45,863 nucleotides of DNA from Achromobacter insuavis (GTDB lineage: Bacteria > Pseudomonadota > Gammaproteobacteria > Burkholderiales > Burkholderiaceae_B). Below are positions 10,813 to 42,126 of the stretch, one piece after another. The stretch spans positions 1 to 45,863 of the forward strand of contig NZ_CADIJR010000050.1 of assembly GCF_902859645.1 (NCBI RefSeq), read 5' to 3'. Within the stretch, counting starts at the first letter, position 1, and each line of letters starts with the position of its first letter. The notes beneath the pieces are model-generated. The model had not been told where the DNA came from. It worked only from the letters and a program-made list of their open reading frames with translations, and made no database searches. A program made the position numbers and the translations under genes.

Positions 10813-11334
10813 ATGACCACCGAAGACACCCCCATCAAGCCCTGGTACGTCGTGCGCCGCTCCAAGCTGCACGGCAACGGCGTCTTCGCCGCCCGCAAGA
10901 TCCCCGCGGGCACCCGCATCATCGAGTACGGCGGCGCCCGCATCAGCGCCAAGGAAGCCGACCGTCGCCACCCCACCAATCCCGACGATCCCTTCCACAC
11001 CTTCTTCTTCGCCCTCAGCTCCGGCCGCGTCATCGACGGCGGCGACCAGGGCAACGACGCCCGCTGGATCAACCACTCCTGCGAGCCCAACTGCGAAGCC
11101 CAGGAAGGCAAGCACGGCAAGCGCGTCTACATCGTCGCCCTGAACGACATCCCGCGCGGCACCGAACTCTCCTACGACTACGGCCTGGTCCTAGACGGCC
11201 GCATCACCAAGGCCCTGAAGGAAGGCTACAAGTGCCTCTGCGGCACCCCGCCGTGTCGCGGCACCATGCTGGCCCTGCCCGAAAAGAAGAAGAAAAAGAA
11301 ACCGGCCGAAGCGCAAACCGAAGCCGCGAAGTAA
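10813..11334 (+). CDS. SET-domain protein-lysine methyltransferase with post-SET zinc motif
   Basis: This 173-residue protein is almost entirely a SET domain, the S-adenosylmethionine-dependent lysine methyltransferase fold common in eukaryotes. It has GNGVFAARKIPAG (21-33), the cofactor/active-site motif RWINHSCEPNC (84-94) and the catalytic ELSYDYG (118-124). The post-SET segment CLCGTPPCRG (141-150) supplies three cysteines that, with Cys94, can form the zinc site usual in eukaryotic enzymes. The protein ends in a run of six or more lysines and an Ala/Glu-rich tail. No signal peptide or secretion signal is visible. The target, whether a host histone, a bacterial nucleoid protein or another protein, is unknown. 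Confidence 0.93.
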   Translation: MTTEDTPIKPWYVVRRSKLHGNGVFAARKIPAGTRIIEYGGARISAKEADRRHPTNPDDPFHTFFFALSSGRVIDGGDQGNDARWINHSCEPNCEAQEGKHGKRVYIVALNDIPRGTELSYDYGLVLDGRITKALKEGYKCLCGTPPCRGTMLALPEKKKKKKPAEAQTEAAK

Positions 11335-11557
11335 GCAAGCGGCGAGGGCACCCACAGCGCAGCCCCAACAGCTGCGCTCGCCCGACACCCGGCATCCAGC
11401 CCGGCACCGCCCCGACGCAAGCCCCTCAAACGCCAAAGAAGGCCGCCCGCGCGGCCGCCTTTGGCGACCCCGCAAGACCCTCCCCCCAGCCCCATCCTGG
11501 GCCAAAACGCCAAGCAAACCGCTTTCCCCCAGCGCCCGTGAAGGTACAGCTGACCGA
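11335..11557. other. non-coding stretch after the SET gene, with a hairpin
   Basis: No credible gene lies here; open frames in it have no family-like sequence. A hairpin at 11431-11466 pairs CGCCAAA with TTTGGCG and has inner G+C pairs (GGC/GCC), but no T tract follows. It may be the SET gene's transcript end. From about 11512 the sequence is recognisably similar to the flank of the second structured repeat near 42 kb (shared CGCTTTCCCC and CAGCGCCC blocks). Confidence 0.5.
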
Positions 11558-11717
11558 GCCGGGGGTGGCGGGGCTTGGGGGGAGCGGGGCGTGTAGATGC
11601 GCCCAACGGAAACCGAAGGGAGCCGAAGGCGGACGAGGTTGAGGCAGGGGCAGTCCGGAGCGAACGCTCCGGACCGCAATCGTAGCCCCGCTCCCCCCAA
11701 GCCCCGCCACCCCCGGC
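11558..11717 (+). repeat. structured repeat, copy 1 (long-arm hairpin with conserved 94-nt core)
   Basis: Two perfectly complementary arms (11558-11590 and 11685-11717, 33 bp) enclose a 94-nt core (11591-11684). The core contains its own perfect 10-bp hairpin, GTCCGGAGCG / CGCTCCGGAC, with a 2-nt loop. A second copy lies at 41879-42036 in the opposite orientation. The cores have equal length and differ at 7 of 94 positions. The arms differ at about 13 of 32 aligned positions, yet remain fully paired within each copy. A short conserved flank follows the right arm (GTCTCAAGAACCCCAC here, GTCTAAAGAACCCCAC in copy 2). It lies in an intergenic gap upstream of the FMN riboswitch. Function unknown. 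Confidence 0.9.
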
Positions 11718-11794
11718 GTCTCAAGAACCCCACCCCCACACCCCCAAAACCCCACCCCGAATAAGCATATTCCGCCCCATTCCCAAGACAAGCG

Positions 11795-11800
11795 TAAAAT
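11795..11800 (+). promoter_or_regulatory. candidate -10 element (TAAAAT) for ribB
   Basis: TAAAAT lies 36 bp before the riboswitch P1 stem, in a locally A+T-richer segment after the repeat. No good -35 was found at the usual spacing. Its placement would start transcription just before the aptamer. Confidence 0.35.
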
Positions 11801-11835
11801 CCCCGATGTCGTTAACACGACAAACAAGCAGTACG

Positions 11836-11983
11836 TCTTCAGGGCGGGGCGAAATTCCCCACCGGCGGTATGCCAAGCAACTTGGCGAGCCCGCGAGCGC
11901 CCGGCGTCCTTCACGGAGGACACCGGGGTCAGCAGATCTGGTGAGATGCCAGAGCCGACGGTCACAGTCCGGATGAGAGAAGA
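11836..11983 (+). ncRNA. FMN riboswitch (RFN element)
   Basis: The classical RFN aptamer lies directly upstream of a riboflavin gene. P1 is TCTTC (11836-11840) pairing with GAAGA (11979-11983). Conserved blocks AGGGCGGGGCGAAATTCCCC and ACCGGCGGTA follow at the 5' side, and GAGCCGACGGTCACAGTCC and GGATGAGAGA at the 3' side. The variable arm between them is extended (about 11885-11930, including GTCCTTCACGGAGGAC). FMN binding normally shuts off the downstream gene, here ribB. Confidence 0.97.
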
Positions 11984-12003
11984 TGTGCCGTCACAAGACC
12001 CCC

Positions 12004-41767: not shown

Positions 41768-41878
41768 GTGCGTGGCTCCTTGGGGAGCAATGTAGGCGGG
41801 CCTGGTTTGCAGATTTTGCGGTTTTTTTCTTTGGGTTGGGCGGTTGTTGTTGCTGGTGGGGAGTGGGGTTCTTTAGAC

Positions 41879-42036
41879 GCCCGGCACGCCGGGGCGAGGG
41901 GATGCGGGGCTACGATTGCGGTCCGGAGCGTCCGCTCCGGACTGCCCCATCCTCATCCTCGTCCGCCTTCGGCTCCCTACGGATTCCGTCGGGCGCATCT
42001 ACACGCCCCGCATCCCCTCGCCCCGGCGTGCCGGGC
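41879..42036 (-). repeat. structured repeat, copy 2 (inverted relative to copy 1)
   Basis: Perfectly complementary 32-nt arms (41879-41910 and 42005-42036) enclose a 94-nt core (41911-42004). Read on the minus strand the core matches 87 of 94 positions of copy 1, including the perfect 10-bp inner hairpin GTCCGGAGCG / CGCTCCGGAC. The arms have a different sequence from copy 1 except for the seven inner bases GCGGGGC. Short homologous flanks occur on both sides: GTCTAAAGAACCCCAC reading out at 41878-41863, and CGCTTTCCCC and CAGCGCCC beyond 42036. It lies in a 374-bp gap with no gene, between the AraC-type and GhrA-like genes. Confidence 0.9.
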
Positions 42037-42078: not shown

Positions 42079-42126
42079 TTTTCCACAGGGGCTCGTTTTT
42101 CTGTGCAACGGGCCGGCTGTGGATAA
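42079..42126. promoter_or_regulatory. pair of DnaA-box-like 9-mers
   Basis: TGTGGATAA at 42118-42126 is an exact reverse-strand DnaA box. TTTTCCACA at 42079-42087 differs from the consensus by one base. They face opposite ways about 40 bp apart, in the gap downstream of the GhrA-like gene. A weak stem CGAG / CTCG followed by five T residues lies between them (42075-42100) and could terminate plus-strand transcription. No other origin features are present. Confidence 0.35.

Follow-up and report, generated by a model that had tools for sequence, protein, structure and literature searches.

A dispersed intergenic repeat of Achromobacter whose arms change in step around a folded core

Structured dispersed repeats such as ERIC, BOX and bcr1 are multi-copy, intergenic and foldable and lack coding capacity, and REPs are intergenic palindromes of 20-40 bp, some of them tagged GTAG. 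The excerpted text of PMC3110155 names ERIC, BOX and bcr1 as repeats and describes the Beta-proteobacterial repeat element (BRE) as a sequence of ~90 bp, intergenic, in Alcaligenaceae and in a transcribed region, arranged in tandem variable-number arrays and, as printed, present in Comamonadaceae; a table row of PMC2267715 lists Bor-1 and Bor-2, stem-loop families of Bordetella, with a Bor-2 model of 167 nt and 17 (6) sequences. Hairpins maintained by template switching offer a further comparison: the excerpts of PMC8794818 report compensatory changes that are instantaneous and maintained by template switching, and those of PMC8604942 that in bacteria this process favoured transversions, and that it makes arms homogeneous and spacers inverted.

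The repeat described here occurs twice in the window, by which we mean the whole 45,863-nt stretch of Achromobacter insuavis DNA that was analysed. With template-switch hairpins, as excerpted from PMC8794818 and PMC8604942, it shares perfect stems, simultaneous compensatory changes, arm homogenisation, spacer inversion and the transversions seen in bacteria; compensated changes at orthologous stems stand far above chance (348 double against 145 one-sided), and the spacer is inverted in 2 of 275 copies (crude motif test, 33 unclassified). The hairpins of those excerpts are rRNA stems and short inverted repeats of yeast genes, whereas the Achromobacter element has arms of 32-33 bp, a conserved folded core and an exchanged branch. 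It looks like ERIC, BOX and bcr1 in being multi-copy, intergenic, foldable and non-coding, yet each site has arms of its own, which are rewritten in step, and the taxa and the sequence are other. From BRE, going by that element's description as excerpted, it appears to differ in arrangement and host range: of 26 cases in three complete genomes where neighbouring copies are less than 1.5 kb apart, 23 are head to head, at distances of 478-1030 nt, and 2 in tandem, and a second model (13 copies, other genera), run on 300 genomes of the order under strict filters that lose weak matches, had 3 matches, none of them outside the element's own family. Bor-1 and Bor-2, compared by their table row only, are likewise intergenic and foldable, and Bor-2 is near in size to the copies of g15, another genus of the family.

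The likeness to REP/RAYT systems lies in the intergenic palindromes and in the GTAG tag, which has a counterpart in GTAG at the left edge of some copies (type B, below); identity is ruled out by a length of ~160 nt with a 94-nt core and by the lack of a Y1 transposase (PF01797) in the element's own genome. As for the features of a MITE or IS, right ends are conserved, and no clean empty site was seen at three loci, where flanks are too diverged or only remnants are left. A known Rfam family, which the preliminary description had named as a check, is ruled out at the gathering score, where a scan of the window returned the FMN riboswitch only and nothing for the element; at E<=10 the element gave sub-threshold matches only, mostly to microRNA hairpins. 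Literature searches found no description of this element in Achromobacter, and the family, a sizeable share of the intergenic DNA of the genus, is apparently undescribed.

Two copies in the window and the fold of the unit

The preliminary description had claimed two elements with perfect arms of 32-33 nt around 94-nt cores, and both are borne out. Copy 1 (11558-11717, +) has 33-nt arms that are 100% complementary, copy 2 (41879-42036, -) has perfect 32-nt arms, and the two 94-nt cores are identical at 87 of 94 positions (92.55%). Thirteen of 32 arm positions differ between the copies, and each difference is matched in the opposite arm (hand count, aligned from the core outwards). Folding z-scores are -9.8 and -10.2 for copies 1 and 2, with none of 200 shuffles as good in either case. 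The parts are as follows.

11414..11484 (+): M hairpin module of the copy 1 unit, with the conserved tip GGCCGCCCGCGCGGCC at 11441-11456 (unit consensus)
11485..11557 (+): linker of the copy 1 unit, with AAAACGCCAAGCA and CCCCAGCGCC conserved (type A consensus)
11558..11590 (+): 5' arm of copy 1, 33 nt, G-rich (letters, fold, self-match)
11591..11684 (+): core of copy 1, 94 nt, three-way junction (fold, covariation)
11605..11646 (+): variable cassette, the P2/P3 branch of the copy 1 core (cassette comparison, covariation)
11607-11643; 11611-11614/11637-11640; 11622-11624/11628-11630 (+): cassette pairs of copy 1, the second being P2 and the third P3
11653..11674 (+): P4 hairpin of the copy 1 core, 9-10 bp, nearly invariant (covariation alignment)
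11685..11717 (+): 3' arm of copy 1, 33 nt, C-rich (letters, fold, self-match)
11718..11731 (+): conserved right end of copy 1, GTCTCAAGAACCCC (unit consensus)
42005..42036 (-): 5' arm of copy 2, 32 nt (letters, fold)
41911..42004 (-): core of copy 2, 94 nt (fold)
41879..41910 (-): 3' arm of copy 2, 32 nt (letters, fold)
41865..41878 (-): right end of copy 2, GTCTAAAGAACCCC (letters, unit consensus)

The full unit is ~300 nt long and consists of the M hairpin, a linker, the H element and a conserved right end, which in type A units reads ...AAGAACC (consensus). The M tip is a conserved 16 nt; in copy 1 the M stem is variable but paired and CGCAAG motifs flank it on both sides, and an M-like palindrome lies at most 300 nt upstream in 331 of 372 copies. 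No M module was seen by eye upstream of copy 2. The H stem, with a median of 34 Watson-Crick pairs, closes a conserved three-way junction, and on anatomy alone we regard it as virtually certain that H folds, its long stem enclosing this junction. Of 299 distinct copies, 280 were counted as full and 278 parsed; among the latter the internal loop beside the stem is GTGTA/GTA in 104 (type A) and AACCTC/GTGGGC in 74 (type B, with GTAG at the left edge), the remainder having other forms.

The core helices covary across 54 copies, in keeping with the structured element first proposed, and the inner hairpin noted at the outset is the 9-10-bp P4 at 11653-11674. Cells were paired in 96.7% of 1527 cases against 89.8 +/- 0.4% after shuffling, and 94 cells were changed on both sides against 27.2 +/- 4.2, neither value being reached in any of 500 shuffles. 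Double changes fall on 8 core pairs (5.8 in shuffles), and further pair types show no excess (15 against 16.0, with 452 of 500 shuffles at least as high). When partners are slid out of register, core pairing drops to 23-51%.

Copy 1 lies between a SET-domain gene on one side and an FMN riboswitch and DHBP synthase gene on the other; the riboswitch (11831-11988, +) begins 114 nt 3' of the copy, ahead of the DHBP synthase gene. A promoter scan of 11300-11960 around copy 1 found none, and one terminator-like site occurs in the same interval, at the M hairpin on the - strand, with 1.5 expected. Copy 2 is flanked by a 2-hydroxyacid dehydrogenase gene and an AraC/GyrI-like regulator gene. Upstream of it stands an inverted pair, TTATCCACAG...CTGTGGAAAA (42117-42126 and 42083-42088, -), which we take to resemble a DnaA box; TTATCCACAGC or the near-identical TTGTCCACAGC is present at the orthologous copy-2 loci of G040, G020, G009 and G018.

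Distribution and genomic context

Many intergenic copies with variable but paired arms, which the preliminary description had named as support for its reading, were found. Within its own genome the element has 40 matching places (E<=0.001; the search gave 42 rows, from which two matches of the element's own arms to each other were left out), and the core is matched in 42 of 43 Achromobacter genomes, its own included, G023 being the sole genome of the genus with no core match. Copy number within the genus runs from 0 (G023) and 3 up to 40-45. A core pattern search of genome contigs returned at least 97 stretches, and among the matches listed all are from Achromobacter. Across the family, the 54-copy covariance model matched 21 of 200 genomes in 6 of 43 genera (Achromobacter 10, g15 7, and g5, g10, g13 and g20 one each); the plasmid and phage collections searched held no match. 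Many copies were collected by likeness to the window core, so that the sample leans to types A and B of that core. The repeat is a dispersed intergenic family with some relatives in other genera of its family.

In the 11 copies read from g15, the motif GGGAAACCGAAGG-hairpin-ACGAGGTTGACNA is kept while the arms and P4 are of other sequence; the arms are again long and paired, and head-to-head pairs likewise occur. Single copies from g5, g10 and g20 have a comparable fold plan in a 240-nt window, although the g20 copy has no significant fold in a shorter stretch of 146 nt (z -1.8).

Most copies are found at gene 3' ends. With genes called by a crude ORF script, 124 of 209 distinct copies have convergent neighbours, 79 codirectional ones (48 sense and 31 antisense) and 6 divergent ones, a further 37 having no gene call on one side; 3 copies overlap a called gene. 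In three complete genomes, with dnaA marking the origin, 33 of 40, 38 of 43 and 34 of 45 copies fall in the origin half of the chromosome; this enrichment, noted in G011, G040 and G037, may merely reflect conserved gene order. Orientation relative to replication shows no significant bias in these counts (leading strand 14 of 40, 17 of 43 and 22 of 45; p 0.08, 0.22 and 1.0).

Change of arms and core at orthologous sites

The contrast first drawn between variable arms and a conserved centre holds between paralogues; at one site it does not, as there the arms track the flanks and the P2/P3 branch is often swapped. We compared the same site in related species with both flanks matching, and in the 52 pairs whose flanks diverge by 4-6% the difference is 4.6 and 4.5% for the two arms, 1.6% for the constant core and 15.1% for the cassette. 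In random pairs of unrelated copies (n=600), the arm difference is 36.0% and the cassette difference 21.3%. Between species, the arms belong to the site and change about as fast as its flanks.

Independent mutation without selection is expected to leave mostly one-sided changes, and compensation by way of G.U to proceed slowly and mostly by transitions. Over 152 distinct, indel-aware comparisons of orthologous stems, which share species and sites and are not independent, 348 double changes stand against 145 one-sided ones; 325 of the double changes run from Watson-Crick to Watson-Crick, with 224 transversional swaps against 101 transitional, and 96 paired indels occur besides. Double changes exceed one-sided ones even at 0-4% flank divergence (0.036 against 0.020 changes per pair). 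Relative to third-position divergence (143 comparisons, 45 sites), double changes per pair amount to 0.60 (site mean 0.53), which supersedes an earlier value of 1.01 obtained with no indels allowed, and one-sided changes to 0.26 (site mean 0.22); 30 of the 45 sites carry at least one double change. As transversion-rich double changes outnumber one-sided ones and proceed at about half the third-position rate, arm copying is favoured over slow compensatory selection. The core is inverted relative to the outer flanks in two copies, L320 and L182. We consider arm-to-arm copying by template switching to be probably what chiefly keeps the stems perfect, selection playing some part as well, and the orthologue data fit the early suggestion that one arm is restored by copying or conversion from its partner.

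The cassette behaves differently from the arms at the same sites. It was readable in 370 of 372 copies, and in 23 of the 52 orthologous pairs with 4-6% flank divergence it differs by at least 20%; at site 1, G009 and G040 carry identical arms and different cassettes, and 23 of 195 cassettes are found in at least two clearly different arms. Within cassettes, the variation of P2, the adjoining S1/S2 pair and P3 is a paired one; of the 196 distinct cassettes, 12 fall outside the P2 pattern, 9 of them owing to an insert before P4. These comparisons support a wholesale swapping of the P2/P3 branch among copies, which gene conversion would explain most simply. Cassettes are only slightly more alike within genomes (0.201 and 0.192) than between them (0.208; 4 of 300 permutations), so the exchange does not homogenise a genome, and strong within-genome homogenisation was not found.

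The two strands of the stem are not equivalent. Among isolated arm mismatches in unique context (n=139), G.T outnumbers A.C by 83 to 12, which supersedes an earlier count of 98 to 13; totals of 233 and 258 were left unused, since they include fixed internal-loop positions and stem ends. Mismatches between orthologues show a smaller excess (55 against 12 unique, 72 against 22 when not made unique). With the paired state taken as ancestral, G.T arises by C>T rather than G>A in a ratio of 39:11 and by A>G rather than T>C in one of 16:1; the bias holds for both mutation routes, and a simple C>T bias is therefore no explanation. In all 115 copies tested, drawn from four Achromobacter genomes, the 5' arm is G-rich, with a positive GC skew. 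M stems have no G.T/A.C bias (3 against 3). Given the excess of G.T mismatches and the G-rich 5' arms, the + strand is probably single-stranded when working, as RNA or ssDNA.

Possible roles and modes of maintenance

The reading that we prefer is one in which template switching between the inverted arms would copy changes from one arm into the other and so keep the stem paired, the P2/P3 branch would pass among copies, most simply via gene conversion, and the + strand would act at gene 3' ends, most likely as RNA, its structure limiting read-through or protecting transcript ends between convergent genes. Taken with all its steps jointly, this account is plausible while falling somewhat short of probable, and the RNA role at gene 3' ends is suggested more tentatively still; the orientation of codirectional copies, with its weak excess of sense over antisense, speaks against a role in read-through, and the unbiased mismatches of the M stems and the negative promoter scan around copy 1 speak against a general transcript. 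Two readings are in play, that of an RNA-level 3'-end element and that of a non-autonomous mobile element. For the latter, which we hold to be rather unlikely, the folded + strand would be ssDNA and a putative transposase substrate, the arms would be repaired by template switching without any host function, and head-to-head pairs would be composites with outward ends GGTTCTT...AAGAACC. Mobility would suit a copy number that varies from none through 3 to 40-45 within one genus and the head-to-head arrangement of close neighbours, in g15 as well, and the strand asymmetry fits ssDNA equally; yet Y1 transposase PF01797 has 0 matches in the element's own genome (one family and one genome, with control genomes positive), the plasmid and phage collections are without a match, many copies are old orthologous sites, and neither a target duplication nor a clean empty site was seen at site 1, site 2 and one composite, where flanks are too diverged or only remnants remain.

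Ordinary compensatory selection on an RNA stem, without arm copying, would by itself leave G.T in excess of A.C among the remaining mismatches and would agree with the covariation of the core helices. We judge it quite unlikely as the sole cause, however: double changes outnumber one-sided ones already at the lowest flank divergence and run at about half the third-position rate, most are transversions, which cannot pass through G.U, paired indels occur too, and core inversion requires an arm-mediated exchange. Strand asymmetry bears on the plain cruciform or nucleoid site that had been raised as a possibility, for example one organising the origin half of the chromosome. The concentration of copies in that half and the absence of a replication-strand preference would suit a double-stranded DNA site, but a cruciform treats its strands alike while mismatches and composition here are strand-asymmetric, the origin bias may only follow gene order, and one species (G023) does without the element; we regard such a site as very improbable.

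The unusual feature of the family is its mode of evolution, in which arms rewrite each other around a folded core with an exchanged branch. A functional RNA helix is usually proved by covariation, which in the long stem seems to be largely made by mutation; the family is a warning that covariation is not readable as selection alone. With dozens of loci per genome and the conserved core as a contrast, it becomes possible to measure how often templates are switched in natural bacterial hairpins. A bolder and doubtful view is that these repeats could form a new class of structured RNA, dispersed across a bacterial family with 0 to ~45 copies per genome, whose fold would be kept by its own DNA through arm rewriting, core flips and branch shuffling, each locus being different yet foldable.

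Several individual copies depart from the common plan. L356 (G087, genus g5) has a far longer P3 branch, and in L243 and eight more (9 of 196 distinct cassettes) GGGG and AGTCC are separated by an insert that could fold into a small additional hairpin and turn the core into a four-way junction. In L135, L137 and L138 at site 2 and in L105 at site 1, deletions have left arm remnants only; the one in L135 seems to be bounded by short direct repeats within the palindrome.
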